From assembly GCA_002189035.1 (NCBI GenBank), contig NEEC01000009.1, positions 2,604,001 to 2,668,000 of the forward strand: 64,000 nt of DNA, read 5' to 3'. Below the pieces are notes generated by a model. It was not told the DNA's origin and searched no databases. It saw only the letters and a program-made list of their open reading frames with translations. Below, piece after piece: positions 15,278-64,000 of the stretch. Origin of the DNA: Utricularia gibba. Lineage: Eukaryota > Streptophyta > Magnoliopsida > Lamiales > Lentibulariaceae. The first letter of the stretch is position 1, and each line of letters begins with the position of its first letter. Position numbers and translations under genes: made by a program.

Positions 15278-16455
15278 TCAGGCATTCACCTCAACCTGTG
15301 TTCCTCTGGTTTCAGGGATCAGCAGATCAACCTCAGATTTGTACTCTCGTTGCAGATAAAATGGATTTGCAGTCAGAATCCTGAGTTCAGATCTGTCATT
15401 GATCTCCAAAACTTCAGGGAATCTGTCTCCACAGATCCTTGACATCCCAACATCGACCCTTATTGCTCTGTTGCCACAGACACCATTTATCCCATCTATC
15501 TGAATTGTGTGTCCCATGATCATCCTCCTAACTCCAGGAATGGTATTCAGAGCATGCTCCAGCAATGAGCAGTCACAGTCCTTTGCAGATTCATAGGAGA
15601 ATTTCCTTAGCCATACAACTGAGTTCTTCCCCCGCACTAAATCATGGGCAAGCTTGTCTTTCCCCCACGGATCCAGTCCCGTACCTCGTCGTTGAGGCGA
15701 TCCAATCCGTACACGATGTGATCCTTCAGCAGCCCACCATGAGCAAAAACAGAGTCCCCCACAATCACCACCGTCTGGTTATTGGACAAGAACCTCTTTG
15801 CAATCAAACCATTTGGCCTGAGAGCAGCAAACCTAGCTCTAGCTCCAGTTTGAAACTCTGATGGGACTCTACGGAATTCAGAAGGCACCCCATGATACAA
15901 ATCGCCGATCAGAAACTTATCATCCATACCATCACACAGCATCTTCATACTATTACCGGTTGATTGCCACATCGCCCAATTTTCGAACTCGTTGAACCCT
16001 TCTGGAGTGGCATATCTAAAATCCCCATCTACATTCATAATCTCGTGATTTCCATTCATCGTGATCACCCGCCCACCTACCTTCGCCGCCTCCCTCTTCA
16101 ATTTCTCGAAGAAATACAACAACTTGATCTCATCCCCACCGCGATCGAGAATATCACCCACCTGAACAACGGTGGCGGCGCCGCCGGACCAACGGCCTTC
16201 TTTATCGATCAATTCCGCCAACCGCAGCGCTTGTCTGGCCTTCTGGAGGTCTCCGTGGATGTCCCCAATAGCCACGAGGCGTTTGGGTTGTGGAAAAACT
16301 GTCTGCAACGGAGTATCCTCGTTCTTCAACGGGTGTCGTTCCGGCGGTAAGAAGACGCCGCCGCTGACAGAAAAGTCGACGAAAGCGTCGATAAACTGAG
16401 CGACACTCGCCGGAACCCTTCCGCAGTCGACGGAGGAGGGTATCGGATTTTCCAT
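15278..16455 (-). CDS. SLP2: Shewanella-like protein phosphatase 2 (frame broken by one base)
   Basis: A single-exon metallophosphoesterase of the PPP type. The first frame (16455 to 15637) holds GDIHGD (64-69), GDILDRGGDE (100-109), GNHE (135-138) and VFAHGGLLKDHI. It then runs into a stop after VRDWIRGG. A second frame resumes at about 15670 and carries RGKNSVVWLRKFS, RMIMGHTIQ (the last metal-binding His) and a family-typical C-terminus ending VEVNA at 15278. The total length is 1178 bases, one short of a multiple of three. One extra base at the C5 run 15662-15666 would give a 392-residue protein. Family members bind two metal ions and dephosphorylate phospho-tyrosine/serine substrates. 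With no N-terminal transit peptide, it resembles Arabidopsis SLP2 rather than plastid SLP1. The break is probably an assembly error; a true pseudogene is the alternative. Confidence 0.85.
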
Positions 16456-16796
16456 CTACTCCTCCAAAAATAAGATTCTTCTTTTGCGAGTGGAAACAAG
16501 ATTCTGTTCAACGTCCCAGTAAAACGGTAAATTAGTTAATATTAATTTATTTAATATTAAATTAGAATGATTTTAATTAAAAATAATTAGTTAATTAAAT
16601 TAATAATAAATAAATAAAAGAAATACAGAGCCCTTCGACCTTCACTACGACTAACGCCGGCCGGCGGAGTGGAAGCTCCGTTGCTTGAATTAGTAAAGAA
16701 GCAGCGTTACTTGAACTGTGTTCTTAATATAGGGTTGATGCACATTGTACTGTAGATATGTATTTTGGTATTGAACACTATGTGTGATCGTCGGAA
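16456..16796. other. Short spacer: SLP2 promoter overlapping CNGC 3'UTR
   Basis: Only 341 bases separate the SLP2 start codon from the CNGC stop codon, both on the minus strand. The segment 16530-16620 is AT-rich (TTAATATTAA-like words). It must serve as both the channel gene's 3' end and the SLP2 promoter. No other feature is seen. Confidence 0.5.
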
Positions 16797-19343: not shown

Positions 19344-20017
19344 TACCCAAAAAGGCAAATCAATAGGAAGCTGAAATAAGACAGAAAACAATTGATGAGA
19401 AAATTACAGCCAGCGGCATCTTTGAAAGAAGAAAGTGGCTGAGTTGAAGATGAAGAAATGATGTAAACACACACATACATACACACAAGCCAGATTTCAA
19501 TACGTAAGGATGCACTGTGTGAACGCAGTTGCTCCTTTTATTTCATCAGCCATGAACCATGTGACTTGACTTGTTCTAAACCGCAACATTTTGGTCAGCT
19601 GCTGACCCCTTTTGTCCGAAAGAATCAACTTTCCACAGTTTCAAATTAGCAGAACCAAGATGTAGTCAAAGTCAATTGAAGCTTCGGCAAACAATATAAA
19701 ATAACACTGATACAAGACGTACCGGAATCAAAACGGTCGTTGCCACTGCTACAAGAAGAAGAAAATGGCGAACTTGGGAAGCACCCAGAAAATGGAAATG
19801 GCAGACGGGTACGATCGTGAAGTGTAACAGTAGTGCGGTTTATAAAGACGAACTGGGTCCTTGTCGATTGCCCACCATCCAATCAGCATTCCCATGCGTT
19901 TCAAAGATGCGAGGGAGACAAGTGAAAAACAAAAGATGTCCAATTCGTGACAGGCGAGTTCATAAATCTTGGGGGCATATTCCATAAACTAAGTTGAGCT
20001 CCCTACGCCCCCACTCA

Positions 20018-24107: not shown

Positions 24108-25095
24108 ATGGCTCGAAGCCTGATGCGTGTTCTCGTTAGAATTGGAGGAGTTCAGCACCAATCTCCCATTGCGATCAATGGCTATCAACTAAATTTGAAT
24201 GCTTCAGGTGGGTGTTTAGCAATTTTCATGGCCTGCTCCCCAACTGTTTGATAAAAGTACTCACAGAATTTGAGTGCACACATGCAGGGATTCAAGTCTT
24301 TCCAGCATCATGTCGATTTTTTTCGGGTGGAAAGAGATCAGGTTACGATCTTTTCAAAGGTAAGATTCCAACTGCCAAGGAATTCAGGCGAGAGTGGGCG
24401 AAACAACTGGAGGACGAAGAGGACCATCTGTGGACTGGAAGTGAAAATGACGATGAACTAGATGGGGACAGTAAGCTTAAAAGGGAGATAAAAAAGGCAA
24501 AGCACCGAGCGCGTCACGATGACATCGACGCTGATGATAGCGATGAGCTTCATGGTCTCTTCTCAGAAAGCGATGAAGATAAGTCCCTGTGGACGGGCAG
24601 CGAAGGCGACAGTGACGCTGATATTCCCAAAGAAGCGACACCGCATGAGAGAAGCGACAAGTACATAGACACATTGTTTGAGTTCGAGGAGAGGCCCAGA
24701 TTCAGAAGTCTAACACAAGCACTGAAGGATGAGGAGGAGCCAGAGGAGATGTCTCCCGGAAAACAAGCAAGGAAGCTTGCTGTGCAGAATGCCATGAAGA
24801 AACTGAAGAAAGGGCCTGATGGAAGGTACATAAATGTGTGGGAAGTGATGAGTGATTTGGATGTTCTCGTTGGCGCTTTCGAGAATATAATATCAGGACC
24901 AGAGTATCAGGAACTGAGGGAAGGGGACCAAGAAAATTGAACATGGACTTCTTCAAGGACATTCAGAAGAAAATGAGGGATCCAAACTACCAATTCTCTC
25001 CTGAAATCAAGTTGAAACCAAGGTCAAGCAAGTTGGTATCTAGGAAGAAATGGCAGAAGGCAGAGTCGAGGCGCAGAAAAGCCCGGAACCGGTAG
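24108..25095 (+). CDS. Conserved plant protein, probably organellar (frame broken by one base)
   Basis: Two exons, 24108-24207 and 24288-25095, with a GT-AG intron. The start MARSLMRVLVRIGGVQHQ is basic and acid-free, like a mitochondrial presequence. The mature part holds KIPTAKEFRREWAKQ, then two copies of an acidic LWTG(S)E motif and the conserved SPGKQARKLAVQNAMKKLKK and FEVMSDLD-like VWEVMSDLDVLVGAFENI. The frame stops at 24938 just after LREGDQEN. In the next frame KLNMDFFKDIQKKMRDPNY runs on to a basic end (KKWQKAESRRRKARNR) at 25095. The coding length is 908 bases; one more G in the G4 run 24923-24926 gives 302 codons. I recognise the family as a conserved plant protein without assigned function; a mitoribosome or RNA-related role is only a guess. 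Confidence 0.75.
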
Positions 25096-25498: not shown

Positions 25499-29630
<4,132 letters not shown>

Positions 29631-31189: not shown

Positions 31190-34100
31190 ATGGAGGGCGA
31201 GTATGGGCTGATTCTGGAATGTATCGTTTCCGGAGCCCTTTTTTGTGTTTTTGGGGCAGCATCTTTTGCTATACTTTGGTTGGTGAATTGGCGGCCTTGG
31301 CGGATTTATAGGTGACCAATTTCCCCTTCCACTTTTTCATGCTTCCTTTAGTCGTGATATTCTGATGGAATGAAGTGGCGGGATGCTTGTCTTCTACTCG
31401 TAATATTTTGGCAATTCTCGATGAGTATACAGAATTTGCTTTACTACTTTTACGTATTGAGAAACGCTTTCACAGAAGCTGTTCATAGATATTTTCACTA
31501 TGGTTTTTTGTTGACGTAAGAAATACTCATCTTTGATCAAGTTAATGCTCCTGATCTCCGATTCCATTAGCTGAGATACAGTGATTGAGTCCTTATTTTA
31601 ACTCAGAAACGCATTTTTTTAATAAGAAAGCAAAAATGTTTACTGTTATATGGGATTTCAAAAGTGTAAAGACCACCGAATTTCTTGTGGCGTGTTTTCT
31701 TGAATTAAGAATCAAGACTAGAATGTATCATGAAAAACGTAATTAGCTTTGGGCTGGACTTAGGGATTTAGGAGTAGAATCATTGGAAGATTGACAGCGC
31801 TGTTTATCTGCACCTTGTCCTCTGGGTACTCGGTTTTGTGGTTTCTTGGTGGCTCCAGTGATGCAGTATGAATGACATCTTATTATGGAGAATGATACTT
31901 ACTGTGGAACTATCTTGCTACTAAGTAGAAGCATTTTCCCTCTAATGTCTCTATGCAACTTGTGATGAACTTACATATTATGCTGTTTTCATTGTTCTTT
32001 CAGTTGGATTTTCGCTAGAAAATGGCCGGCAGTTTTGCAAGGTCCCAGCTTGGATTAGTGTGCGGCCTTCTCTCTGGATCGGCATGGCTGATTGTTGTTT
32101 CACCTATTGCTGTCGTTATTGCATGGGGATCTTGGCTAATGGTGATTTTAGGGAGGGATATAGTTGGGCTAGCTGTTATAATGGCTGGAGTGGCTTTTCT
32201 TCTTGCATTCTATTCAGTTATGCTGTGGTGGAGAACGCAATGGCAAAGTTCAAGTATGTTCATTTTCTTCCTCTGAAACTTGACTATGATATGAGCAACT
32301 GCATTGAGTTACTTGATGTTAGAAGTTCCTGCTTTCTTTTAAAGAACTCCTGAGTAGTGGATTTGCAATAATTGCTATCTGAGAACACGCTTCACATGTT
32401 ATCCATGTACCCAAATAATGAGTGAAAAAGCACCACTTAATTTGATATTATTACAGTCTGAATACACGATTAAGAAAATTCTAAAGAGAAATGATCATGC
32501 GTGTAGTGCTTTGTTGCAAGATATCATAAATTATTCTTGTCATATGTAATTTATCTTATAGGGCCTCTTATTCTTGATTGCATCATTGATCAGTTTGTCT
32601 AATTCTTTTGGAAACCTTGTAACAGGGGCTGTTGCTGTTCTCATTCTCCTAGCTGTTGGGTTGCTCTGTGCATATGAGCTTTGTGCTGTGTATGTTACTG
32701 CGGGTGGGAAGGCATCGGAGCAGTATTCACCTTCTGGCTTTTTCTTTGGTGTGTCAGTTATTGCACTTGCAATAAATATGCTCTTCATCTGTAGGATGGT
32801 TTTTAATGGTATGTGGTGTCTCAAATTGTTTTTCAAATTGAAATTCCGGATTCTCATTCATTAACCTTTTTTTTATCAATTGGAAGGAAATGGCCTTGAC
32901 ATTGATGAATATGTGCGAAGAGCATATAAATTTGCTTACTCTGATTGTATTGAAGTGGGCCCCATTGCTTCGGTGCCCGAACCACCTGAGCCCAATGAGT
33001 TATATTCTAAGCAATCTCGAAGGTATGCCTTATTTCATTTGTGTAGACATGGTTACTTCGCCTATGCTATGGTACATCTTCCTCTTCTTTTTTTTTATCA
33101 GTACTGCTGTACTTCCCTCAAGAGTTGTTTGTGTGAATAATGCCTGCAGGGCTTTACACCTTGGGTTTCTGTACTCTGGTTCACTTGCTGTTCTTCTGGC
33201 GTATTCAGTTTTGTATGGACTTACAGCCAAAGAATCTCACTGGCTTGGTGCAATTACATCTGCCGCAGTGATAATTCTTGGTAGATGACTAAATAACTGG
33301 CTTTGTATCTTCTTGTGTATGTTTACTTATGTAATCCCAAATTTCCTTGCCTTGCAGACTGGAATGTGGGGGCATGCCTTTACGGGTTTAAGCTTCTAAA
33401 AAGTCGTGTTGCTGCACTTTTTGTTGCTGGAATCTCTCGTATCTTCCTGATATGTTTTGGTGTCCATTACTGGTTTGCCTCCTCTCATTTCGTAGTGAAT
33501 AATTTTTCTGAAAATTTACTTCTCTTGACGCACTCTGGTAATGTCTCTTGCAATGTGCATGTACAGGTATCTTGGACATTGCATAAGCTATGCTACTGTA
33601 GCATCTGTGCTGCTTGCTGCAGCAGTTGCCCGTCATTTATCTGTCATTAACCCATCAGCTGCAAGAAGAGATGCTTTGCAGAGTACTGTTATACGGCTTA
33701 GGGAAGGATTTCGTAAGAAGTACCAAACTTCTTCTTCAAGCTCTTCAGAAGGATGTGGATCTAGTGTGAAGCGAAGTAGCAGTGCAGATGCTGGCCATCT
33801 TGGCCATGATACTAACTGGAATAATGTCGAGGGGATTCATTGTGAGAAGGGAGTGGATAGTGGAAGGCCGAGTTTCACTTTGAATAGCAGTTCCTGCCAA
33901 TCTGTCATTCAAGAATCTGAAGTTGGTCCCTCATATGCTGATAAAAGTTTTGAGAATAATAGTCCTTTGGTAGCTTGCTCTAGTAGTGGCATGGAAAGCC
34001 AATGCTGTGACTCTGGTGCCTCTAATTCAATAAGTCAGCCACTGGAATTGAATTTGGCACTCGCATTTCAGGACAAAATAAACAATCCCAGGATTACTTC

Positions 34101-41941: not shown

Positions 41942-44145
41942 CACCCCTGGAATGAGAATCCATGTATAGCTTGACCACTTATGTACTCGCCTTCCCCTCG
42001 AACGCAAAGAAGCTTCAACATCGTGCTCAGATCCCATAAATGCATCCACTGGTATAACTTTCTTTCTTTCTCTGTATTATTTGTTTATCATTGTCATCAA
42101 GTTGATTCTTTTTCTGATCTCCTCGCTCGTTTTGAACATCAGATCAGCTATGGCACACAGTTGGATTTTTTCCATAGTTCATCTACAACAGCGAATGAGC
42201 ATTGATGCAGAGAGCCGCTGCTGAGGGGGGCCTTTCCTGGGGTGTGCGCAAACTGGGAAATGGGAGAGTTTGTGTATGGTAGGCAGAAGGGAGACTGCAC
42301 TGTAAATGGGGGAGCAGCAGAAGGTGGGTTATTTTTGAAGGGCGTCATTGATAGATCGGTTCAGATCAGATGGGATCAGGTATACTTTTACTTGGAACAG
42401 TTCAGAATAGCAATGTAACATGTTGCAGCGGCATATTTGAAGCTTCTGCTCCAATTTTTGACAAAACCTACTTGTCCCTTGTTCAATTATATAAAGCTAT
42501 CATTTTTCTTCCACTCCACAGCAGTTGGATATCATTTAACCAAGAATCATCTCTATCAACTGAAATGCCATTAGTTTACCATGACTGTTAATTTTATTTG
42601 AATCAACAAAGGAGTTTTCGCACAAGACATGTACTCACAAGTTCATATGTGTAGGAAAAGTAAAAACATCAGGTGGTCAAATGAAAGGGCCACCAGATCT
42701 AAGTACCCTCTCTATATTGTCAGCCTTGGTATAGTCCTTTTCAGTCAAAGGGCCAACCGAAAAAGGTGTGATTTCTACAATCAGGTGAGGTGTTGGCAGC
42801 TCATCGAACATGGCACCCACGTTGTGGCAACATACGCTTTCCCATGAGCGTTTTCCCTTCTTATTTGACACCCCTGAAAGGATAGGAGTAACAGGGTAAC
42901 AATAACAAATACCGAGCTTCAGATAAGGAGACTGGTTGAAGGAAATGATGAACATCTGATTAGGATTACTTTGTGCGAGGTAGCATCTCTAAACTGATCA
43001 TCATCTGATAACAAGGATGCAAGAGCTTTGAGGAGATACTGCCCCTAGGACTTGGATGGCACTCTATAATTGCGTTAGAGGGTGCCTATTGTTTTAGGAT
43101 TCCATTAACTCACTAGTTTCCTTCTGTCAGCTGCCTCTTTTTCTGGATCAATACTGATATCAGGTTAGTTTAACGCTACATGTTTCCACCAACAGTGTGA
43201 TTACACTACACCATACGTGGATTGAACCAAAAAGCAAGTTAACCCTTGGGAGCCCCAGGGACAGTAGAACACAAAGATGTATCCATTTTTTATGTGAAAA
43301 ATTCGCATGAAGTGCAATAAAAGCCAGAAACTCGCACCAATTCTACAGCTACACCATTTGTAGTTTGAGCTCCATGTCACCAAAGTACAGGAGTATCCAC
43401 ATTTAATGGGTTCCCATTTGCATAAAATGTCAAAAGAACGGTATATAGTGCTATATCTACAGATCACAGAAATGAGGCATTCAGAACATCTCCCTAATGC
43501 TCATGGGAAAAAGTTACAGTAAAATGCAGTATGACTTGTAAAAAAACATCAAAACACTGCTGCTGCAGTAAGCAAGAAATAACAAATGCAATCATCTTCT
43601 GTAAGCAGTGCAAGCAACAAACCTGGTTTGCTGATCTAGAGAATCCCAAGTCATCAACTCCAGTTTCCATCTCTACCATCAAACCAAAAGAAGCATCGCT
43701 TAAACAGTAAAGCAAAAACAACCTATTTTTGAGTACCTGAAATAAGTGGACTAAGCGGCCAGCCCATACACTAGGAGCCTTAATCAAAGAGGCAATGGGG
43801 GATCGCCCATCTTGCAGCATTCGTGCAGAAAAGATTGAGCCTTGATTTCCTACCCGGGTAAAATCAGAAATCAGAAAAGTTTTGTGGATTGTTTATTGTT
43901 CCAGTTCGTTGAACCAACGGTGGCTCGATTCTCGTCAAAGAAGGAACGGAGAGAAGATATTCATGGAGGATTAAGGTTTCTTCGTTGTTGATGTCTCAAT
44001 CTTTACCCTCTTTCAAAAAACACATCAGTTATTACAGAGGGAGTACATCACATACACGTCTGGATAAATCCGAAATGAAATAAAAAAGAAGAAAAGAAAG
44101 GCACTCGGATGATGGACTTCAATACAAGGACGAGAAGCAACGACG
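41942..44145. other. DEK1 3'UTR and spacer before the PPR gene
   Basis: About 2.2 kb. The first 500 bases are the probable DEK1 3' end. On the minus strand, 43858-43494 contains an open stretch with GNQGSIFSARMLQDGRSP and SLIKAPSVWAGRLVHLFQ followed by a donor-like GTACTC. It could be part of an unidentified gene or transcript running away from the PPR gene, but I recognise no family. The rest shows no coding signal. Confidence 0.4.
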
Positions 44146-46572
44146 ATGCGCATGAACGTCTCTTCCTCAACGACATCTCATACAAGCTTTTCCGCGGCCC
44201 CAATTCCCGCTCACGACTCCGATCGGGGTGCGCCCTTCCAACCCAGAACCATTCGTTTTCGGTTGAGTTCTCTCTGCCAAAATGGCCAACTCCAACTTGC
44301 CCGCCAACTGTTCGACGCAATTCCTCAGCCAACGACGGTTTTGTGGAACACAATTATCATCGGCTGCATTTGCAACGACTTGCCTTACGAGGCTATATCC
44401 TTGTATTCTCGTATGCTGCACAGTGCTAAGTCCTTCGACAGGCCGAAATGCGATGCTTATACGTATTCTTCGATTCTGAAAGCATGTGCTGAGACGAGAC
44501 AGTTGTTGATAGGTAAAGCTGTGCATTGCCATGTTCTGCGTTCAGAATTGCACCCTAGTAGGATTATATGGAGTTCGCTGCTTAATATGTATTCCACATG
44601 TCTTTCGAGTTCTGAGTGTGATTTGGTGGAGAGGGTGTTTAAGGCCATCCCTAGAAAAAATGTTGTTTCTTGGAACATTATGATATCTTGGTATGCAAAG
44701 AGGGGAAGATTCATGGAGGCTGTTAGCCATATGGTGATGATGATGAGAACGGGTATTAGACCGAGCATCGTCAGTTTTGTGAATGTTATTCCAGCTGTTT
44801 CTAGTTTAAGGACTTTCCTCATTGCTTGTGCACTTTATGGGATGTTGAGAAAGTTTGGTGGAGATTATTCTAACAATTTATTTGTGGTCAGTTCTTCCAT
44901 CACAATGTTTGCCGAACTAAGCTGCCTTGGTTTTGCTAGGAAAGTTTTTGATAATGCCCCAGAGAAGAATGCACATGTTTGGAATGCGATGATCGGTGGC
45001 TATGTTCTGAATAACTGCCCCACCTTGGCACTTAAACTATTCAGTAACGTACTGGAAAAACCATGTGATGGTAATATTGATGAGGTGACTTTTGTTTCAG
45101 CTCTAACTGCTGCTTCAGATTTACAAGATTTTGATGTTGCACAGAAAATGCATGCCTATGTGTTAAAGAGTCCATTTTTTTCTTCAGTGGTTATACTAAA
45201 TGCATTAATGTCACTTTATTCAAAGTGCGACTCTATTGGGGATGCCCAGAAAGTTTTCAGCAGAATGCAAAGAAGAGATGTTGTGTCGTGGAACACTATG
45301 ATCTGTGCTCTTGTGCAGAATGAATTGGAGTATGAAGCTTTGCTGCTAATGTATGAGATGCAAAAACAGGGAATTTCTGTTGATGATGTGACAATTACTG
45401 CCTTACTATCAATAGCATCAAGTCTTCGAAATCATAAAATTGGCCAACAGGCCCATGCTTATCTGATCAGGCACGGATTTCAGTATATGGGGATGGAAAG
45501 TTATCTCATATTTATGTATGCAAAATCTGGTTTTATGAAAGTTGCTGAAGAAATCTTCAAAAGAACAAGCAGCAATGATGTTGCTACATGGAACTCAATG
45601 ATTTCTGGTTGCACCCAAAATTCTCTTACCGAGGAAGCCTTTCTTCTCTTTCAACAGATGCTTCAGGAGAATATCATGCCAAATGCTATAACCTTAGCTT
45701 CACTCTTCCCAGCATGCAGTAAGTTGGGATGGATTGAACTTGGAAGGAAGCTCCATTGTTTCGCTATTCGCAATCTTTTGGACACTAATCTTTATGTAAG
45801 CTCTGCTCTGGTGGATATGTACTCAAAATCAGGCTCCATCTATTATGCTGAAAGAGTTTTCATAAAATCCACCGAAAAAAATGCAGTCACCTACACCAAC
45901 ATGATATCTGGTTATGGTCAGCATGGTCTTGGTGAGAAGGCCTTAATGCTCTTTCACTCAATGAAAGAAACTGGTATCGAGCCTGATGCCATAACCTTTG
46001 TGGCTGCACTCTCTGCTTGCAGTTACAGTGGCCTGATCAATGAGGGCCTCCACCTTTTCCAATCTATGCAAACTGAACATGGGATAACACCATCAATGGA
46101 ACACTATGCATGTGTCATAGATATGCTAGCAAGAGTTGGTAGATTGAGTGAAGCATATGACTTAGCAGTAAAGCTAGACAAAGAAGGTGACATTTTAGAA
46201 ATATGGGGATCACTGCTTGCTGCCTGCAAAGTTCATCACAATTTTGAGCTGGGAAAACTGGTGGCAAGCAAGATTCTTGAGATTGAGGGTTCAAATAGAG
46301 TAACAGGATACCATGTTCTTCTTTCCAATCTACATGCAGAAGAAGGAAACTGGGAGCATGTGAAAGGTGTGAGGAGAGAAATGCTGGACAGAGGGCTTAC
46401 AAAAGAAGTAGGTTGCAGTTGGATTCAAGTTTGTGGGGATGTGTTCTGCTTTGTTTCTAGAGACAGGAAGCATCCCCATTGTGCTGAGATTTATGAAATG
46501 CTGATGCATTTGTCAGCAAATTTGAAGGATGCTGACTACATACCTCCTTCTCTAGCAAGTGAAGGAGCTTAG
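44146..46572 (+). CDS. AEF1: Pentatricopeptide repeat editing factor, PLS class, E subgroup (AEF1/MPR25-like)
   Basis: An intronless gene of 808 codons, as usual for PLS PPR genes. Tandem P, L and S repeats run from about residue 43 (LSSLCQNGQLQLARQLFDAI) to about 680, with typical VLWNTIIIG, VSWNTMI and NVVSWNIMIS repeat starts. An E/E+ region follows (WGSLLAACKVHHNFELGKL...GYHVLLSNLHAEEGNWEHV, then GCSWIQVCGDVFCFVSRDRKHP). There is no DYW deaminase domain, so any editing role would need a partner supplying it. Order and wording match Arabidopsis At3g22150 (AEF1/MPR25, about 820 aa), which edits plastid atpF and mitochondrial nad5 transcripts. The N-terminus (MRMNVSSSTTSHTSFSAAPI) is Ser/Thr-rich without acidic residues, consistent with organelle import. 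Orthology is inferred from remembered similarity. Confidence 0.88.
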   Translation: MRMNVSSSTTSHTSFSAAPIPAHDSDRGAPFQPRTIRFRLSSLCQNGQLQLARQLFDAIPQPTTVLWNTIIIGCICNDLPYEAISLYSRMLHSAKSFDRPKCDAYTYSSILKACAETRQLLIGKAVHCHVLRSELHPSRIIWSSLLNMYSTCLSSSECDLVERVFKAIPRKNVVSWNIMISWYAKRGRFMEAVSHMVMMMRTGIRPSIVSFVNVIPAVSSLRTFLIACALYGMLRKFGGDYSNNLFVVSSSITMFAELSCLGFARKVFDNAPEKNAHVWNAMIGGYVLNNCPTLALKLFSNVLEKPCDGNIDEVTFVSALTAASDLQDFDVAQKMHAYVLKSPFFSSVVILNALMSLYSKCDSIGDAQKVFSRMQRRDVVSWNTMICALVQNELEYEALLLMYEMQKQGISVDDVTITALLSIASSLRNHKIGQQAHAYLIRHGFQYMGMESYLIFMYAKSGFMKVAEEIFKRTSSNDVATWNSMISGCTQNSLTEEAFLLFQQMLQENIMPNAITLASLFPACSKLGWIELGRKLHCFAIRNLLDTNLYVSSALVDMYSKSGSIYYAERVFIKSTEKNAVTYTNMISGYGQHGLGEKALMLFHSMKETGIEPDAITFVAALSACSYSGLINEGLHLFQSMQTEHGITPSMEHYACVIDMLARVGRLSEAYDLAVKLDKEGDILEIWGSLLAACKVHHNFELGKLVASKILEIEGSNRVTGYHVLLSNLHAEEGNWEHVKGVRREMLDRGLTKEVGCSWIQVCGDVFCFVSRDRKHPHCAEIYEMLMHLSANLKDADYIPPSLASEGA

Positions 46573-46982: not shown

Positions 46983-49173
46983 ATGGCGGCGACAGCTACG
47001 CTAGCTCCCGCGTTCGTCAACTTTGGTCTATCAAGAACATACTCCATTTTTCCTCGCCGTCCCTTTTGCAGAGTTATCGCCGTTTCGTTGTCCACCGAAT
47101 TCGCTGTCACATCTTCTTCCATCACTAAATCACACAAACCCTCACCCCCGCCTCTGATTTATCTGTTGCTTCTACCTCTGAACCTGGAGGGCCGTGGGTT
47201 GTAAGAGTGGAAGAGGACAAAGCTGCGTCGCCTCACAATGCTCAGAAGAAAAAGAACGATAGTAAAAGTGTTGGGGCTAAGATAAAATCGGGTGCTCCCA
47301 AATACTCTAAAGCTGCCCGTAGGTTTTACAATGAGAATTTCAGGGACGCTGCACAGCGGTTAGCAAAGGTTTTGGCTTCAGCGGGAGGTATAGATTTGAG
47401 TGCGCGTTATCATGTCTTTATTTAGTTTCATGTCATTTAGCGTTTCCATACATTTATAATCTTCAGTGGCATCAAGAAGAAGTAGTGAAGAATTGATTTT
47501 TCAAGGGAAAGTAACGGTCAATGGCTCAATCTGTAAAACACCGCAGGCAAGTTTTGAGTCATGATGAGTTTCATATGAAGCAGGAAATTTGGAAATCCAT
47601 GCTCTTTGAAGATATAAATTCCTGTGTGAGACCCATTTTTATGTTAAACAGTAAACCATGGCTCTCTTATTTTTCGATCACATGGGCAGACTAAAGTTGA
47701 TCCTGGCCAAGATGTAATATATGTTAATGGATGCCGACTAGCAAAAAAACTTCCTCCAAAGGTCTATCTAGCTCTGAATAAGCCAAAGGGGTTAGTAGCT
47801 CTTTTTTTACTAGTCTTCTGTGGCCTTCTGCTTGTTGGATTGATGGATGTGAGACAAAGGCTTCAATGCTGCAGTTATATATGCTCGGCAGGGGAAGAGG
47901 AGAAATCTGTGATATCTCTACTTGATGATTATATGAAGAGCTGGGTGCGACTGACCCCTTTCATGAATCTTTAGGAAACTGAATACCAGTGTTCAAGTAG
48001 TTTTCTCTAATGATGTTTCTTTGCAGATTAAAAGAAACCCTGGAGTTCCACAACCAAGACTCTTTACGGTTGGCCGCCTTGATGTTGCCACTACTGGGCT
48101 GATCATAGTAACGAATGATGGTAAAGAATGTGAATCGTGCGTGATTGATAAATATATATATATTTTTTTGCGTCACTATTTCCTTATCCATCGGCTTGCA
48201 TCTTGTAATGGTGGCCTGATTCCTGACAGGTGAATTTGCTAACAAGATTTCACACCCTTCATTTAATATATCAAGGGAGTAAGTTAGTTTTCCTGAAACC
48301 ACAATTTCTGCTTAACATAATGTCTCTCCACTAACTTAAATGATGGAAAAAAAATTTTTTTATCCTTATCTTCATATTTTTGGGAGTGCAGATACATTGC
48401 AACGATTAACGATGTGGTCAGCAAACAACACTTGGTTACCATTAGCAAGGGAACTGTTATAGACGGTGTTCATTGTGTCCCTGATATGGTAGAGTTGCTA
48501 CCACGGGAGCCTGGTAGTTCTAAAACCCGGATTCGTGTTGTGGTACTGATTCATGCTTTCAATGCTTCCCTAAACTATTATTACCAGTATGTTTCTTTTA
48601 TTGAGTAAACGAAGCAAGTTAGTTGAAAATGCTGTAAATTAATCCTCCTATTCAAGTATTTCAATATGGAGGGTATGATAAACAATGCATGTTTTGTGAT
48701 ATCCAGGTACATGAGGGAAGAAACCGTGAAGTGCGAGAGCTTGTTAGAAACGCTGGACTTCAGGTAGAATAGAATTTGTTTAGACATGCATTTTTGTCTA
48801 GTGGCTTGAAATCTTACTTCAGATTTGAGTGAACTCTATCCTGTGAACTCTGTTTCTTCCAGATTCATTCACTGAAGCGTATCCGGATAGGTGGATTCAG
48901 GCTTCCCACTGATCTTCCGTAAGTTATCAACATGCATGCTGCTGTTGATTTTTCCACCTTCATCTAACAATGCCTTGAAGAAAGAAAACACTTTCCACTT
49001 CCTCTTATTCTACAAAATTTGCTTGTTGAATTCCTTGATCAACTTGCACAAGCCATTTCGAATGTTCCCAATGGCACAGTGATCTCTTTAATCACATCTG
49101 CATTTCTCTTTTCAGGCTCGGAAAGCACATAGAATTGAGTTCTGCTAATCTGAAGGCCCTCTTTGGGGAATAG
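46983..49173 (+). CDS. SVR1: Plastid RsuA/RluB-type rRNA pseudouridine synthase SVR1 (frame broken by one base)
   Basis: Ten exons: 46983-47387, 47467-47546, 47690-47790, 47875-47944, 48027-48120, 48230-48278, 48392-48542, 48707-48763, 48863-48918 and 49116-49173. They sum to 1121 bases; one extra C in the C5 run 47145-47149 makes 373 codons plus stop. Upstream of that run is a Ser/Arg-rich transit peptide (MAATATLAPAFVNFGLSRTY). Downstream the frame reads PWVVRVEEDKA, an S4-like RNA-binding segment (RRFYNENFRDAAQRLAKVLA, ASRRSSEELIFQGKVTVNGS) and the catalytic motif FTVGRLDVATTGLIIV (Asp about 238). The family's VHEGRNREVRELVRNAGL and RIRIGGFRLP follow. Arabidopsis SVR1 modifies plastid rRNA and its loss suppresses var2 variegation. 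Intron 2 (47547-47689) is GC-AG. Without the added base the first frame stops at 47204. Confidence 0.92.
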
Positions 49174-49839: not shown

Positions 49840-51078
49840 ATGGCAGACCCGGTGCGAGAAGAAGCGGCGGAGAAAAACCCAATCCTGATTTTCATCTCGA
49901 ATTTGCTCAATGCAGTCAAGCTTCCGTTTCTGAAGAAGAGCGATGGTGATGATGTTGTCGTTGGGAGCTCTTCGTCGTCTTCTACCAACAAGGAGGAATC
50001 CGTGAAGGATAATCCAGCCGTGGCGGTGGATGATGAACGCGAGGGTGTTGTTGTTACCAGAGTGTCTTTTCCCCAGACCATCGCCCCTGTCAAAATCAAA
50101 GAGGAAGCGGAGGGACCGGAGCGGAGTACGAATCCCGTGCTTCTTTGGCAGGTGACGTAGTCGCGCTGAATCTTTCTTTCTTTTCTTGTTGTTTTCGTGC
50201 CAATTGTCTCTGTTACGTTTGATTTTACGCTCGTTCTTGTGTGGCGAATTACTTCGTTCCATTTGATAAATAAGCTGTGGGTGCTCCTCTCTTCGTTTGC
50301 GTATATGGGTATAGATACAATTTTCTGTTTAGGAATCCAGAGTTTGCAAGGCAAAATGAGGATTGGTAGTTGTGTTGTCTGGGTGCTTGTTGTTTTCATC
50401 TAAAAAGTAGTGTATGGCTAAATTTCTACATAAACGATAATAGATCATAAACTGTACTTGTTCTAATTCATAGAATCATTTGGCTAGCATCTGAACCTGA
50501 CTGAGGAAACTGTGTTTATGCATTTCGGAATGTCTGAAACACCATTGGTATTTGCGACAGTTCTTGGAAGCATTTTCTCATTCGCTCTAGTTTTCTTGCT
50601 TCATTTAAGATGCGGGTTACAGTTTCCTTTAGTGAATAGTTAACTCAGCCTGGAAAGTGTTATACTCTCCAGTTGTTCCTTTGGGAGGTTTAGTGTGTCT
50701 GGACTTTCAACTCCTGCTGCTATTCTTTGAAAATGACGACATTTGTTTGTGCGCATGCCCCCTTCCTAGAAGATCATGTTACCATAGATCTGCCTGCCAC
50801 TCTGTAATCAGGGGAATATGTTCTTCCAATATCTGTGGGCATGCTTTCACCATGCATTCTAATTCACTGACAGACTGTCTCACATGAAAGGATATTTTCT
50901 CCTGAATACGTGCAAAGTACTCAGAATCCTTCTCTGTGCGTTGTTGATGATGAAACAGGTGTATGCTCTGGGGGGTTTTCTTGTCGTCCGTTGGGCTTGG
51001 ACGAAGTGGAACGAACGCAGGGGTCAAAAGAAGCCTGATCAAGATGATGACTCTCCCAACTCTCCTGCTTCTGCCTAG
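49840..51078 (+). CDS. Small conserved membrane-anchored plant protein, function unknown
   Basis: Two exons, 49840-50151 and 50959-51078, with a GT-AG intron of 807 bases; 143 aa. An ATG 30 bases upstream (49810) is also in frame, but MADPVREEAAEKNP looks the more natural start. The N-terminal hydrophobic stretch ILIFISNLLNAVKLPF may be amphipathic. The middle is Ser/Asp/Glu-rich. The exon junction joins PVLLWQ to VYALGGFLVVRWAW, giving one short hydrophobic segment near residues 99-118. The tail is charged and acidic (RRGQKKPDQDDDSPNSP). I know of no function for it. The 3' part of its intron and its second exon are included in the tandem duplication downstream. Confidence 0.72.
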
Positions 51079-52854
51079 GCCTTCGCAATGAACGTCATCG
51101 TATGCTCGGAAGGAGACCTCCAGAGGAAGTGATGATGCTACCCCCACCGCCGTATGTTGTATTCCCCGCTGTATTGTACTGACACTGTTGTGCAGGCGGA
51201 ACACGATCCTTTTATGATATCCAGGCCTTCTGAAGACGAAGAAGGCCCGACCAGAGCATCACTCCGGCGACCAGAACACACTCGTTTATATAAATAGGCC
51301 GTCCGGTCAAGAGCTTGCGAACTTAACCGATCGTGTAGAACAATCAGCCGTTGTGCATGATTCTGCAGGTCGAATGGAGCACATTGTTTCCTCGGCATTC
51401 CGTCGAACACGTCGCGGGTCTTCCCGCGATCACTTGCTGAGATGGAAAACAAGTATTTCGGGGAATTTTATTATATGTGCATTATTAAGAGAGATTTGTC
51501 CAGAAACGATGGATGAGGTGTCTTCGTCAATTCCACATAAAGCCTTTAGCCGACTGATTCGTACTTCCGCCTCCTCATTTACACCTTAGCCTCACACCTC
51601 TCCGTCATTACGGTGAAGCTCGTGATGGTTCTTTCGTTTGCGCTCAAGTTTCTGTACCCGCCGCCGCCGGGCATCGTGGTAACGGCGATGTCCTTCTTAA
51701 GCTTTGCGGCGCTGACGAACGCGGGGTGGATGGAGATCAAGGGGAAGCATATGCAGTACTCGAAGCTTCTCAGCAAAAAGGAAAAACCCGCACCCTCGGT
51801 GCCCAGCAGAATTGGGATGATTGTCTTGTACACGCCGGCATTTATCGCCGGGCTTTCCTCATTTTTCCTTTTCCCGATGGGAACACTCCGCTTTACTCTG
51901 CTCCGATCGGCTGTCACTGCCCATTTCTTGAAGAGGATTCTTGAGGTGCGTGTCCAATACGTTGGGTCACCGAAGAAATTTCATTATAGCCTGCCGTTGT
52001 TTTATTCGATCCAGGGTACTGTTGATTATTGCTGCCTATTTCATCACACTCTACACTTGTCTCCGAGAAATGCTTCAGAAAATGCTGTGTGACTGCTTAA
52101 AACGCTTCTCATGGTGGTGTTGCTCCTCATCACCGAAGAAGGCTGATGTCGAGTTACACATCTTGCTAACTGCTAATTCCTTTATGTGACTGCTGTATGC
52201 AGGTGCTCTTTGTGCACAAGTTCAGTGGATCGATGGAGGTGGAAGCCATGATAACCATCAGCCTGAGCTATTTCGGGTCCGCGGCGATGATGATCTACAG
52301 TCAGCTGCTGGTGGAAACACTCAAGGAGCCAGTTGTTGATCTCAAGTACACTGGAGTGGTGCTGCTGCTAGTCGGGCTGCTTGGCAACTTCTACCACCAC
52401 CTTCTTCTATCGAGGCTGCGATCGTCCAAGGGCGACTTCAAGTACAAGATCCCCAAGGGAGGTTTGTTCTCTCTGGTGATTTGCCCTCACTACCTGTTCG
52501 AGATCCTGGGGTTCGTCGGCATATCATGCATTGCGCAGGAAGTGTACTCACTTTCCTTCACCCTGGGAACAACTTTTTACCTGATGGGAAGGAGCTATGC
52601 GACGCTGAAGTGGTACCGGTCCAAGTTCGAGGAATTCCCCAAGGATGTGAAAGCGCTGTTCCCTTACATTTATTAGACTGCTGTAATGTGTGCTGCATCA
52701 GAACAAATGCTTTGGTTTCTGGGGGGCAATTCAAAAACCTTCATTCAATGCTTTCTCTGCTGAAACATAGATAGGTGACAAAGGGCACCGCTAAGTGCAT
52801 TGTCGTAAGGAAGAAACCATTCAGGGAATACTGAGGAACTGAAGAAGAATGCTT
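50645..52854. repeat. Tandem duplication unit A (direct repeat)
   Basis: This segment matches 52999-56448 at high identity. It contains the 3' half of the small gene's intron, its exon 2, the 5' region and body of reductase copy A, and the 3' flank up to GAAGAAGAATGCTT. The left edge is TCAGCCTG, also present at unit B's start. Relative to B it lacks about 280 bases (50815-50822 versus 53168-53455) and the LTR. Confidence 0.85.
51625..52676 (+). CDS. Steroid 5-alpha-reductase family protein, copy A (DET2/ECR superfamily)
   Basis: Two exons, 51625-51945 and 52203-52676, with a GT-AG intron; 264 aa. The start MVLSF...LYPPPPGIVVTAMS, the GKHMQYSK motif, SGNFYHH-like LLGNFYHHLLL, YKIPKGGLFSLVICPHYLFE and the terminal RSYATLKWYRSKFEEFPKDV match the plant 3-oxo-5-alpha-steroid 4-dehydrogenase family protein group (At5g16010 type). 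The protein is polytopic, with about six hydrophobic helices, expected in the ER membrane. The conserved C-terminal His/Glu/Tyr motifs (HYLFE, WY..KFE) are those that bind NADPH and the enone substrate in the superfamily. The physiological substrate of this plant subgroup is not settled (steroid or very-long-chain enoyl-CoA-like). It is paired in tandem with copy B; by eye the two differ at about 26 of 264 residues. Confidence 0.87.
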
Positions 52855-52890
52855 GCTGCTGCCCGAAAAGCTTCGCTGGTCATGAAGCTT

Positions 52891-53002
52891 TTCCATAAAT
52901 CCCTAAACATAGTGATTTTCTGTTGTCTTAATTGTGAGGGGTATGATTGTGCATGTTTTGACAGGGCGGGTGAGCTCTCTGCTGTTCGCAAATCCTCGTC
53001 AG
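52891..53002 (+). pseudogene. Inverted, truncated RPS18 fragment
   Basis: On the plus strand this matches the end of RPS18 intron 2 plus the start of its exon 3 (minus strand, about 56895-56800). The shared part is an intron tail ending in an ACAG acceptor, then GGCGGGTGAGCTCTCTGCTG. About 28 bases of exon are then missing, followed by GCAAATCCTCGTCAG. It cannot encode a protein. It lies in the opposite orientation to the intact gene, at the junction between the two duplication units. Confidence 0.8.
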
Positions 53003-53590
53003 CCTGCAAGTGTTACACTCTCTAGTTGTTCCTTTAGGTGGTTTGGTGTGTCTGGCCTTTCAACTCCTGCTGCTATTCCTTGAAAATGATGATATTTTTT
53101 TTTGCGCCTGCCCCCTTCCTAGAAGATCATGTTACCATAGATCTGCCTGCCACACTGTAAGTAGGGGAACATGTTCAGATACCACACTTGGCCGCATAGA
53201 TACAGATCATGATTTTCTGTTTGTCAGCTTGTAGTTCATAGCCCACATGCTCAGCGTCTGTAGATGTCATTTAAGTGACTAGTTTCCTGGCATGTTTCAA
53301 AGTTTTTCACTGTAGCAGATCTGTGATTCTCATCAACATCTCCTCATTTGGAAATGAAAAGCACAACCCATTGCAGTTCCTGCACCAGCATTCATCTTCC
53401 CTCTGCATAGCATTGTTGGGGTTTGCTTTGTTTCATTTACCGACCCCAACATGTTATTCCAATATCTGTGGGCATGCTTTCACCATGCATTCTAATTCAC
53501 TGCCAGACTGTGTCACATGAAAGAATATTTTCTCCTGAATATGTATAAAGTACCCTGAATCCTTCTCTGTGTGTTGTTGATGATGAAGCA

Positions 53591-54524
53591 TGTTGGAAGT
53601 TCAAATAAGGTCACTGGTTCAATAGATGACTTCAAACGTGGTAATGGATATTGAGAGGTACTTTGTGGTTGTTGCTGTTGGGACAAGGATGTTGTTGTTG
53701 GAGAATTCGGTACTGTATTGGGTTTTTTAGTACAAAACAGAACTGTAATTCTTTTACAATGAAGCTGTATTTATGGAGCTCAAAAATAGCCGTTTGACTG
53801 AGTGATTTTGAGATATCTTATCCTCTTGAGAATTTTCGCTTCGGGTTTCCTTTAACAGAAAACGGTCATCTCTTTAGAGGAGATGCTCTTTGCTGGATTG
53901 GGCTTGAGTCATTGCTGGGCCTAGTGTAATTCTGCTTGCATAGGTGATCTGTTATACTGTCGTTGGGCCTATAATAATAAACCCAGTATCTGTATTTTTC
54001 CTAAGCAACAGTTTTCCTCCCTCGCCTCATTTTGAAAGGATTTTTGGATGTTTAGAGGATGAACACTTGTGCAGCAGAAAATATTGAGAGATTTTTGTGA
54101 AAATATTGAGCCTTTTTCGTACTTTCGACCCTTACAGCTCCCTTGTTTTTACATGAATTTATAGGAGGAAGAGATAGTTGCCCGTTAGACGAGTTAGTGT
54201 CATTAACTCGTTAGGTGCTCTCTGTTCTTGCTTCTGCAGCTACTGTTTCACGCGACTGTCTTTTTGGGCTTGTAAGGTTTGGGCTTCCGGGAATTCTTTT
54301 TGGGCCGTGAGTCTCGGAAGCTTAGACCCAAGGATGATGAGTCCGCTTTCCCAATGTGATCGAGGGTTTCTTTTCCTGGAACAAGCGGAGACGGTAGGAG
54401 TCCTTTTCCGCTGGTTACTCCTCTTTGATTCTTCATTGCTTCATCAGCCATTAACACATTTCCCTTCAGCTCGCGCTGTTGTGTCTCACGGCTCTGTTGC
54501 TTCTGATTTGTCTCAGTTTCAACA
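53591..54524. mobile_element. Probable solo LTR (934 bp)
   Basis: Comparing the two duplication units shows this as an insertion in B. It begins TGTTGGAAG and ends TTTCAACA, so the ends are TGTTG...CAACA inverted. It is flanked by AAGCA (53586-53590) and AAATA (54525-54529); the empty site in A at the same place is AAACA, a 5-base target duplication with one change on each side. An LTR-like leader signature (ACATGAATTTATAGGAGGAAGAG) lies inside. There is no internal retrotransposon coding sequence, so it is a solo LTR. The superfamily is uncertain; 5-base duplications fit both Ty1/copia and Ty3/gypsy. Confidence 0.7.
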
Positions 54525-54530
54525 AAATAC

Positions 54531-54651
54531 GTGTATGCTCTGGGGGGTTTTCTTGTCGCCCGTTGGGCGTGGACGAAGCGGAACGAACGCAGGGGGTGAA
54601 AAGAAGCCTGATCAAGATGATGACTCTCCCAACTCTCCTGCTTCTGCCTAG
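54531..54651 (+). pseudogene. Decayed copy of exon 2 of the small membrane-protein gene
   Basis: This matches 50959-51078 closely (VYALGGFLVARWAWTK). It has lost its splice acceptor to the LTR insertion six bases upstream. It also has an extra G in the run 54592-54596, which brings in an in-frame TGA at 54597-54599. No copy of exon 1 precedes it. Confidence 0.82.
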
Positions 54652-55244
54652 GCCTTCGCAATGAACGTCATCGTATGCTCGGAAGGAGACCTCCAGAGGA
54701 AGTGATGATGCTACCCCCACCGCCATATGCTGTATTCCCCCGTTGTATTGTACTGACACTGTTGTGCAGGCGGAACGCAATCCTTTTATGATATCCAGGC
54801 CTTCTGAAGACGAAGAAGGCCCGACCAGAGGATCAGTCCGGCGGCCTTGTTCCGGGTAGAACCCCAAGACTCGTTCACATAGACAGACAGGTAAATAGGC
54901 CATCCGGTCAGGAGCTTATGAACGTAACCGATCGTGTAGAATAACTAGCCGTTGTTCATGAATCTGCAGCGGGAAGATCGTTTCTGCAGGTCGAATGGAG
55001 CGCTTCGTTTCCTCGGCACTCCGTCGAACAGGTCGCGGGTCTTCCCGCGATCACTTGCTGAGATAGAAGACAAGAATTTCGGGGGATTTTTTATACATGC
55101 ATTATTAAGAGAGATTTGTCCAGAAACGATGGATGAGGTGTCTTCGTCAATTCCACATAAAGCCTTTAGCCGACTGATTCGTACTTCCGCCTCCTCATTT
55201 ACACCTTAGCCTCACACCTCTCCGTCATTACGGTGAAGCTCGCC
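54652..55244. promoter_or_regulatory. 5' region of reductase copy B
   Basis: About 590 bases homologous to 51079-51624 upstream of copy A, with small indels and a 25-30 base difference near 54850-54890. The 200 bases before the ATG are nearly identical in both copies. The sequence duplicated with the coding part is therefore likely to include the promoter. Confidence 0.5.
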
Positions 55245-56266
55245 ATGGTTCTTTCGTTTGTGCTCAAGTTTCTGTACCCGCTGCCGCCGAGCATCGTGGT
55301 AACGGCGATTTCCTTCTTAAGCTTCGCGGCAATGACGAAGGGGGGGTGGATGGAGACCAAGGGGAAGCATATGCAGTACTCGAAGTTTCTCAGCAAAAAG
55401 GAGAAACCCGCACCCGCGGTGCCCAGCAGAATTGGGATGGTTGTCGGGTACACGCCGGCATTTATCGCCGGACTTTCCTCATTTTTCCTCTTCCCGATCG
55501 GAGCACTCCGATTTACTCTGCTCCGATCGGCGATCACCGCCCATTTCTTGAAGAGGATTCTTGAGGTGCGTGTCGAATACATTGGTTTATTTTATTCGAT
55601 CCAGGGTACAGTTGATTATTGCTGCCTATTTCATCACACTCTGCACGTCTCTCCAAGAAATGCTTCAGAAAATGCTGTGTGACTGCTTAAAACGCTTCTC
55701 ATGGTGGTGCTGCTCCTCATCACCGTAGAAGGCTGAGGTCGAGTTACCCATCTTGCTAACTGCTCATTCCTTTATGTGACTCCTGTATGCAGGTGCTGTT
55801 TGTGCACAAGTTCAGTGGATCGATGGAGGTGGAAGCCATGATAAACATCAGCCTAAGCTATTTCGGGTTCGTAGCGACGATGATCTACAGTCAGCTGCTG
55901 GTGGAAACACTCAAGGAGCCAGTTGTTGATCTCAAGTACACTGGAGTGGTGCTGCTGCTGGTCGGGCAGCTTGGCAACTTCTACCACCACCTTCTTCTAT
56001 CGAGGCTGCGATCGTCCAAGGGCGACTTCAAGTACAAGATCCCCAAGGGAGGCCTGTTCTCTCTGGTGATTTGCCCTCACTACCTGTTCGAGATCCTGGA
56101 GTTCTTTGGCATGTCATGCATTGCGCAGGAAGTGTTCTCACTTTCCTTCACCTTGGGATCAGCTTTTTACCTGATGGGAAGGAGCTACGCGACGCTGAAG
56201 TGGTACCGGTCCAAGTTCGAGGAATTCCCCAAGGATGTGAAGGCTCTGTTCCCTTACATTTACTAG
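55245..56266 (+). CDS. Steroid 5-alpha-reductase family protein, copy B
   Basis: Two exons, 55245-55565 and 55793-56266, at the same positions and lengths (321 and 474 coding bases) as copy A; 264 aa with no disabling change. The intron is about 30 bases shorter than that of A. Conserved motifs GNFYHH, IPKGGLFSLVICPHYLFE and LKWYRSKFEEFP are intact. Changes relative to A cluster in membrane segments (for example GFVGIS to EFFGMS and GTTFYL to GSAFYL) and may alter substrate preference, which is speculation. It faces RPS18 tail to tail, with 221 bases between stop codons. Both copies look functional, so the duplication has not yet led to loss of one. Confidence 0.87.
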
Positions 56267-56487
56267 ATTGCTGTAATGTGTGCTGCATCAGAACGAACAA
56301 ATGTATTGGTTGCTGGGAGGCAATTCAAAAACCTTCATTCAGTGCTTTCTCTGCTGAAACATAGATAGGTGACAAAGGACACTGCTAACTCCACTGTCTT
56401 AAGGAAGAAACCATTCAGGAAATACTGAGTAACCGAAGAAGAATGCTTCGAATTGTGATCACGGCACGCATCACAATAGGTGGTTGC

Positions 56488-57490
<1,003 letters not shown>

Positions 57491-60151: not shown

Positions 60152-61165
60152 TTTCAGAAACCAGAACGTCGACCGAAGAGGCACCAAGCAAAAGCAACTC
60201 CTCGTGTTAAACCCACGGCAAAGACGGGTTTTATTAACCCGAAAAGAAAAGAAAATTACGAATTTAAAAAATATCGCTGTAATTCATTAAACTGATTGTG
60301 ATTAGAATAAATGCAAAGATTCATTTAAATTACGTCATCATTACCATTTAAAATAAGCATTTTGTATACCAAAAATAGTAATTTGGATTAATTCACTAAT
60401 TTATTCTAATTAAATTCCTATGTGACCCATTCAACTTTTGAAACAATTAAAAAAATGAATCGTCAAAAAATAATCATCCCAAGAAATATATTAATGGTGA
60501 TCACTTTTTTAAATGATCCTTTAAATTTTGATTATAAAAATATTTCATTTGGAAAAAAATTAAATCAATTAAATTTCAAGGAAATTTAAAACATTGCACC
60601 AGACTCCCCCATCATCATCAAGTGTTGAGCCAGGCACTGGACTTGGAACAAAAGGCTCACACAACACTACCATTTCTGAATCTCCATAGGAAAAGGAAAC
60701 TGGTTCCAGAACATGATGAATATATGAATTGTTTCATTGTTTCTGAAACAATTCGCATATTCTCCGATGCGATCGCAGGTTTGTTTCGCCGAGGGCTGAG
60801 GCAACATCTTGCAGGCAGCATTGCAGCAAACACATCTCGAAGGAAGCAGCAACTCCCCCATCTACAGGCATTCATGAGCACAAATGATATGGTAATACTT
60901 GGTGTATTTGTTCTGGTGCTCGTGTGCGTTTCCAGAAGAAAGGGTGTACTCACGTTGTGTGTTATGGTCCCCCGCCTGCATCACGGGCCATCCGAGATTC
61001 ATTCTAGCCGGAGGCTGGTTGAAGATAAAAGAACAGAGCAACCACACTGATCACATAATGAGTTGCATCACGGATGAGGGGAATCACCTGAGTTGGGATT
61101 CTGCTCTGCGGCTTGCAGGAGCAGCGAATCTTCGCTTTACTAGCAATGTGGATGATACTTCAATG
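60152..61165. other. UBC7 promoter and SMG8-like 3'UTR
   Basis: About 1 kb. 60230-60590 is AT-rich. 60620-61165 is less AT-rich and has open frames on both strands. None resembles a known protein, and it probably represents the long 3'UTR of the SMG8-like gene on the minus strand. An unannotated small gene on the plus strand (60622-61050) cannot be excluded. Confidence 0.4.
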
Positions 61166-64000
61166 CTATTCCTTGGGAAATTCGGAATTGTTTCTGTTGG
61201 AAACAATCTGCAAGGTGGTGCCTTTTACTATACATGCAGTGTATTGAGGTTGATCCTCGAATGGTTTGAGCGGAAGCACCCTTCCATCCTCCAGTTTTAC
61301 ACCATATATGAAGGGAAGCCTCAAAGAAACAAAACTGTCGGGAGGTAGGATAACAGGGCAGGGTACGCTGAACTGGAGCTTTTGTTCACGATGCTGAACG
61401 GAAGCAGGGAGACAAGACATCTGCAATCACAGATGATATATGTGAGCTTGGAACCGTAGACCATAGTCTGGTTATGAACAAAAAGGTGTACACAAGTCGA
61501 GTATAGCATGTAAGAAAATGGATATCGAATTTTAACAACTAAACAATATATGCACCTCAAATTGTATCACGGGGGCCAAAGCTAGCACATGAGGATATGA
61601 AGGAGTCACCTGAATTTAAAAATAGATCTCAGCAATCTTTTAATGATGAGGGGCATTTTCATGCCAGTGTAAGAAATAGTAGAAAACAGAGCAGTAAGAT
61701 TAAAAATGCCAGTTTCCTGTAAGGTATATCAGGGAAGTTTTTGGCATTTGACAAATGAAATCGATTACTAAGAAAGAACAAGAAACTCTTTGATCATCAT
61801 CTATTGGTAAATCCTTATCGGCAAATCATGAGAACAAAAGATTAAGAGTATACCACGAAAACTCTTTGAAGTTGTGAAGTAGTGCCTGCAAATCTGTGAT
61901 TTGATGTGCTGCTAGGTGGTGATGAGTTGCTACAATGCGGGCAGTTCATATAGAGTGGCAAACTTCTATTCAGAAGGGGTAAAGCTTGTCCGGCACCATC
62001 AAAGGCATGCTTTGTGACAAGATCACTGTCACAGTTCCCATTTTTTATTTTGTGATCGTGATGGACACCTCTGCCTGCTGATGGTACGGAATTATTATAT
62101 GATGTCCCAGTATTGGATACCTTCGGTTTTAGTTTACCACGTTTCTTTGTCTTGCTGCTCCCCATAGCAACGCCATTTGTATGCCCATGAATTTTGTCCA
62201 TCTTAAATGATTCCGTTTCTTCGACACCCTCAGCAAACGAAGCAAAATTATCATCTTCAGGCAACCAATATGGTGAGCCAAGCTCCTTAAGGTGGCCCAT
62301 GGTCAATATGAACCTGTGGCCTTGAGGACACTCATGTTCAAATCCAACATATATGGAATCATGCTCCATTGAAATGTTCCTGGTCATTTTATCAACACCA
62401 TTCATATTTGCAGGCGAAAATTTGTTGCTAATGCCGGTTTCTTGCCATGCTCTGTCAACCACAGTGGCCCTTTCGAATTTCCCAGAGCCTTGATTAGGAG
62501 TGCTGCTGCTATGTTTCTCCATAACAAAAACTTGTGCACCCTGCAGCCCTACACCTTCTTTGCTGGCACCTACAGGAGACTTCCTATCCAAGAGTATACG
62601 AAATGCTGAATTTGAAGCCGCAGGTCCAGCAACTACTTCAGCAAATGGTTTCCTCATTGTAAAGTTAGATACCGCCTTGGTGACAGAACCATCATTACTA
62701 GTCTTTTGATTGATATCAGAGATCCTAAGCTTTCTTCCTAAGGCATCATCCACTGCACCAGCACCTACAGGAGCAGCATCAAATGAACGTGACCCCACAT
62801 CATCAACAATTTCAACTTTGCTCATGGTGTCCCTTTCCATGCAGGGTTGCTGGGACGCAAATTTTGGTGAATGACTTGATTCATTAAGCTTCCCAAGATT
62901 CAGAGTCCAACATTGAAGAAAATTCTGATTTTGACAAAAGCCGCTCTGCAGCAACCCCTTGGATGGTTTGTAGTACTTTGCACTACCAATACGAACTAAA
63001 CTCCATGGCAGTGGTTGTACATGCCCATCACATTTGGGCTCCGGCATTTGAATGGACGACAGAAATTGATCACATTCTGAAAATACACTGTATGTAACAT
63101 TTGCATTTTCGAAATCGAAGGGGTCAGGTCTCAGTTGTCTGGAACGACCACAAGCGCATGCATGGAGATACATGTATCCACTTGAATGAGGATTTCCTCC
63201 ATCATCAGGGGTATTATGCCTCTGATGGATGCAAGGTTTGTCAGTCAGACTGACTGCATCGCATAGCTGCCTTCCAGAAGTCCAAATAGAAGTACATTCA
63301 TCCTGCAATTTTGTAAGAAAAAGAGGCACAGATGGCCCCTTTACTATGGAGGAAAACGCATATAAGGCCCTCTTTAAATGCTCTTCATGTTGAGGACTAG
63401 GATAGAATGGGGAAGGTTATCCAAATAGACCTCCCTGGCAAGTGGATAAGACTTTTCACACCACCAAGTCGAAAATCTGGTGCTCAGCCCACTGCATTTC
63501 TTCATATGGGATATAGCCAATTCGTATGGTTCAGAAGATCCCAAACTTTCCCTTGATGCTAACACAAAACCTTCTTTCCCTGCCTTGCTAGATTCAACAG
63601 AACAAGATAAATCAGAATTGGATGACAATATTCTTTGCAAGATAACAAGAGAATAAGATGACCACGTATCAAAAGTGGGAAGGTCAGGATTAGTCACAAC
63701 GTTTCCAGATGAAGCTGGCATAGAAGGCACTGCAGAGGCTGAGGCAGCAGCGGCAGCAGCAGCAGCTACTATGCCACCACCCAGAGCAGAGGTTGTGCTG
63801 CTACTAGTAACCAAACCACCTTTGCCTCTCAAAAGACCAGACTGCCGTAAGATGAAATCCTTAATAGAGGCAACATCCTCTTTGTTAGTATTCTGTAGAT
63901 GGCTTCCAGTCAAAAGAGACTCCAGTGTTGTTTTTCCCTTCAATACTTCATCAACCAGGTGAACTGTAAAGTCAAGAGCTTCACCACTTTGAATTGAAAA
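61166..64000 (-). CDS. SMG8: SMG8-like nonsense-mediated decay factor, 3' part (frame broken by one base; cut by window end)
   Basis: Two exons are in view: 64000 (cut) to 61854, and 61420-61166. The visible part holds SIQSGEALDFTVHLVDEVL, a poly-Ala segment, ECTSIWTSGRQLCDAVSLT, CIHQRHNTPD, and GYMYLHACACGRSRQLRPDPF, the SMG8 signature. Then come ECPQGHRFILTMGHL, NCPHCSNSS and a conserved end (QLQFSVPCPVILPP-like, LPFIYGVKLEDG). SMG8 with SMG9 regulates the SMG1 kinase in nonsense-mediated mRNA decay; plants keep SMG8-like proteins even where SMG1 is lost. Between YLDNLP and YPSPQHEEHL the frame shifts at the G4 run 63409-63412; one added G on the plus strand restores it. The protein's N-terminal half lies beyond the window. 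Confidence 0.85.

Follow-up and report, generated by a model that had tools for sequence, protein, structure and literature searches.

Five genes in a window of Utricularia gibba DNA (the whole stretch analysed, 64,000 nucleotides) are interrupted by single-base frame changes and, as far as sequence comparison can tell, these breaks are almost certainly errors left in the consensus of a long-read assembly and not the result of gene decay. The window lies within contig C505 of an assembly that was searched over its 100.09 Mb and 516 contigs. Consensus calling would drop one base from runs of identical bases, above all from G/C runs of at least three; where such a loss falls in an exon, the reading frame would shift and an intact gene would appear broken. 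Systematic under-calling of homopolymers had been proposed in a first-pass annotation of this DNA. The proposal is supported both by the same sign and context of frame changes in conserved families on many contigs and by the run-length disagreement, in the absence of substitutions, between two duplicate contigs (C241 and C304). For each individual site in the window, we infer that an assembly error has occurred.

Frame breaks in the window

Frame changes at the window sites were followed by three-frame translation. The five runs at which the first-pass annotation had placed the breaks read exactly as it gave them (C5, G4, C3, C5 and G4), and at each of the five sites the translation agrees with its claim that family sequence continues in the next frame. 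Four of the genes, i.e. SLP2, an unnamed 24.1-kb gene, DEK1 and an SMG8-like gene, resume in the frame expected after the loss of one base inside the G/C run. The loss of one base also holds for the fifth, SVR1, but the exact placement of that loss in a CCCCC run is only likely.

The SLP2-like gene, which encodes a Shewanella-like phosphatase (15278–16455, minus strand), has a single exon and a coding length of 1178 nt against the 1179 needed; its lost-base site is a CCCCC, as written on the plus strand (15662–15666). The joined protein gives a single Metallophos match over profile positions 2–188, compared with positions 2–98 for the truncated piece, and Shewanella phosphatase structures can be aligned through the join as well as on either side of it. 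In the SMG8-like gene (61842–64000, minus strand), which is cut through by the end of the window, the site is a GGGG on the plus strand (63409–63412). The Pfam Smg8_Smg9 match covers residues 163–304 of the joined protein and spans the break near residue 197; a Pfam search with the upstream piece alone returned zero matches.

The unnamed gene at 24.1 kb (24108–25095, plus strand) is formed by two exons, 24108–24207 and 24288–25095, which together make 908 nt and are one base short. The codon-usage score switches frame at its GGGG run (24923–24926), and a Pfam search assigned the gene to no family. In DEK1 (plus strand), the frame of the exon 32004–32253 changes at a CCC (32044–32046); the sequence expected at this break is what we take to be that of DEK1, and a PDB search for a relative gave no match.

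The SVR1-like pseudouridine synthase gene (46983–49173, plus strand) has ten exons with consistent junctions and a total of 1121 nt, again one base short of a multiple of three, and everything downstream of the break is open. The last stop in frame 2 stands at 47126 and the first stop in frame 0 at 47202. The frame change necessarily falls within 47129–47201 and could have occurred anywhere between the two stops; the CCCCC at 47145–47149, which lies in this interval, is thus a likely, though unproven, site. Intron 2 of this gene (47547–47689) shows an apparent GC-AG splice pair, and another likely GC-AG intron is found in a PPR locus, L076.

Such frame changes could be bridged by introns, or could stem from wrongly drawn exon boundaries, and introns do account for some apparent jumps elsewhere in the assembly, for example in a GRAS gene on contig C4 and in the PPR locus L076, which proved to be a false alarm. 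At the window sites, on the other hand, the two frames overlap or abut, so that there is no space for an intron, and re-derived coding lengths came to 3n-1, as the first-pass annotation had claimed, in SLP2, SVR1 and the 24.1-kb gene, with proper splice junctions. In three of the genes (SLP2, the 24.1-kb gene and DEK1) an intron is excluded, and this explanation as a whole can be given next to no weight.

The breaks might also be real single-base deletions; the genes would then be pseudogenes undergoing decay in a genome that is shrinking and biased towards deletion. Gene loss is known for small carnivorous-plant genomes, and the same assembly does contain a true pseudogene, an alpha-tubulin-like copy on contig C1 (5059570–5059960). 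Two in-frame stops interrupt this copy, whose match to tubulin is weak, and its frameshift is of the opposite sign (plus-one). Decay would bring stops, shifts of both signs and substitutions, whereas the lesions described here are single, of one sign and located in G/C runs. Mixed multiple lesions within a gene, as decay would leave, are absent: the single break is the only lesion found in SLP2, SVR1, the 24.1-kb gene and the part of SMG8 in view. Moreover, DEK1, SLP2 and the SMG8-like gene are single-copy, since a second copy of each was sought in the assembly and none was found, and lesions of the same kind strike HSP70 and HSP90 and recur around one motif in five GRAS paralogues. Decay is therefore considered a very unlikely source of the five breaks. 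Open frames are also present in the window, in an intronless PPR gene (44113–46572) and in a DnaJ gene (11846–13873).

Frame changes in conserved families

Beyond the window, the fault expected from consensus error was found on many contigs and independently of gene function, in the families HSP70, HSP90, GRAS, BAHD and PPR. The assembly-wide search for HSP70 yielded six comparable cytosolic genes, two of which change frame once within the main exon. These changes lie at a GGG on C451 and at a CCC on C496, both at conserved residues, and one missing base explains each. In HSP90, the gene on C451 has lost one C from a CCCC, while the gene on C255 has two losses, a T from TTTT and a C from CCC; the search table alone shows a further within-exon jump, the fourth, on C414.

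The GRAS and BAHD families are mostly intronless, and their jumps were read from search tables. A jump was regarded as clean when the gap in the genome did not exceed 35 bases and the distance departed from its expected value by no more than 20 bases. By this definition, 12 of the 14 clean GRAS jumps are minus-one and two are minus-two or plus-one; all clean jumps are minus-one in BAHD (6/6), HSP90 (4/4) and HSP70 (3/3, although one HSP70 jump could also be plus-two). The GRAS sequence was examined at six sites where the break falls at one shared point of the domain. At one of these six the jump is an intron. The breaks of five genes, located on five contigs, lie around one conserved Gly-Pro motif (GGPP or equivalent), with one base missing at runs of C5, C6, C6, C4 and G4 that encode or border Gly/Pro residues. 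In one of the five, another base is lost a few codons further upstream, and the apparent minus-two case in this family consists of two separate single-base losses. It is not credible that five GRAS genes decayed independently at one motif; a shared motif, rich in G/C runs and mishandled by the consensus caller, is a credible cause. In total, 13 of approximately 40 GRAS loci carry the loss.

Among PPR genes taken regardless of frame, two of about 24 distinct loci are broken, both by a minus-one change. Five further loci with short frames had been picked as likely broken and are thus informative for sign and context but not for rate; two of these genes supplied three minus-one breaks between them (at runs of G5, G3 and G3), and introns accounted for one false alarm. 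The contexts of the PPR breaks are GGG in L015, GGGGG in L074 and, for the two losses in L077, GGG and GGG, while the position of the minus-one break in L018 is fixed only approximately. Many intronless PPR genes are intact, which indicates that the error rate varies. The broken sets of PPR, GRAS and BAHD genes can include true pseudogenes among their members.

When the window and the five families (HSP70, HSP90, PPR, GRAS and BAHD) are taken together, a minus-one change accounts for 35 of the 37 within-exon jumps (P = 5e-9 against equal signs). The two remaining jumps are minus-two or plus-one, one of them resolving into two minus-one losses, and no proven plus-one shift was found among the 37. 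G/C runs of at least three bases, as read, make up 5.1% of coding bases and hold 17 of the 19 codon-resolved sites, at loci that were not selected for run context (the five short-frame PPR loci were selected as likely broken) and with a placement that relies on homology and depends partly on expectation. With the window excluded, the corresponding figure is 13 of 15 resolved sites; one of the 19 lies in a T run.

Run lengths in duplicate contigs

Contig C241 (31 kb) duplicates a segment of contig C304 (2222500–2254700) with an identity of approximately 99.8%. Over 13.5 kb the two differ by no substitution at all but by nine single-base differences in run length: C5/C4, C4/C3, G3/G2, G4/G3, CC/C, A8/A7 and three in T runs. 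In contrast, a tandem pair in the window that has genuinely diverged differs by 50 substitutions and three gaps over 862 bases. Run-length differences without substitutions are the pattern expected from consensus error, although the coverage of the duplicate contigs may have been below that of the window. In these contigs A/T runs are hit as often as G/C runs, so that the bias towards G/C is strong in exons without being exclusive. The G/C context described in the first-pass annotation accordingly stands as the dominant one in exons; it does not hold as the only one, given that A/T runs hold one site in HSP90 and roughly half of the duplicate-contig indels.

It could be argued that the breaks are real in the DNA and are made good during expression, through programmed frameshifting or transcript slippage at the G/C runs, and G/C runs can indeed promote slippage. 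Such a correction would need to act in many unrelated genes and at non-conserved places, and it leaves the run-length differences between the duplicate contigs unexplained; it is regarded as extremely improbable. Scarcely any probability is likewise attached to a real, lineage-wide bias towards single-base deletion in G/C runs, with function kept by transcript slippage or editing.

Some other features of the contigs were recorded. A divergent HSP70-like gene has the same frame change beside a GGGGG in both duplicate contigs (L043, C241:16598–18237; L044, C304:2235823–2237462), and this shared break fits a systematic error or a real change alike. A further redundant contig is suggested by identical GRAS match scores at C316:31414–32541 and C412:853787–854914; the open frames of the two copies measure 412 aa and 615 aa. 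The sizes of contigs C1, C2, C409 and C505 (8,500,000; 6,192,500; 2,492,500 and 3,452,500) are multiples of 2500, perhaps as a result of trimmed ends. In the window itself a steroid-reductase-like gene is duplicated in tandem together with its flank (50868–56448); the copies are 89–94% identical and both apparently open.

Comparable assemblies and use of the U. gibba genome

U. gibba is listed in a 2017 review as an 88x PacBio assembly made with HGAP and Quiver (PMC5793159). In a PacBio CLR assembly of Streptomyces albus SM254 obtained with HGAP and Quiver, polishing with Illumina reads led to 205 indel corrections, nearly all of them in G or C homopolymers (PMC4832174). The two cases are alike in the use of HGAP with Quiver, in residual indels that lie nearly all in G/C runs and in the resulting frameshifted genes. 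They differ in that the errors of S. albus SM254 were confirmed and corrected by Illumina reads, whereas here the sign of the change is derived from protein homology. Homopolymer deletions are also described in the work on Kastor (PMC12007338), where they inflate pseudogene counts, in one example 23.3% before correction and 5.6% after it. There too, homopolymer deletions from long-read assembly fragment genes; however, those data are bacterial and from nanopore sequencing, with A/T runs more affected, while the exonic losses in U. gibba are mostly in G/C runs.

Not every defect reported for this species is of this kind. The truncation of U. gibba DCL3 was checked by RACE and approximately 600 residues are missing (PMC8333044), which places it outside the reach of a fault that removes one base.

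The breaks in the window are an artefact of a known kind and hold little biological interest in themselves. Users of the assembly should nevertheless be warned that the loss is frequent in G/C-rich conserved genes and that, without polishing by accurate reads, both selection tests and tallies of genes that are lost, truncated or pseudogenised will be distorted.
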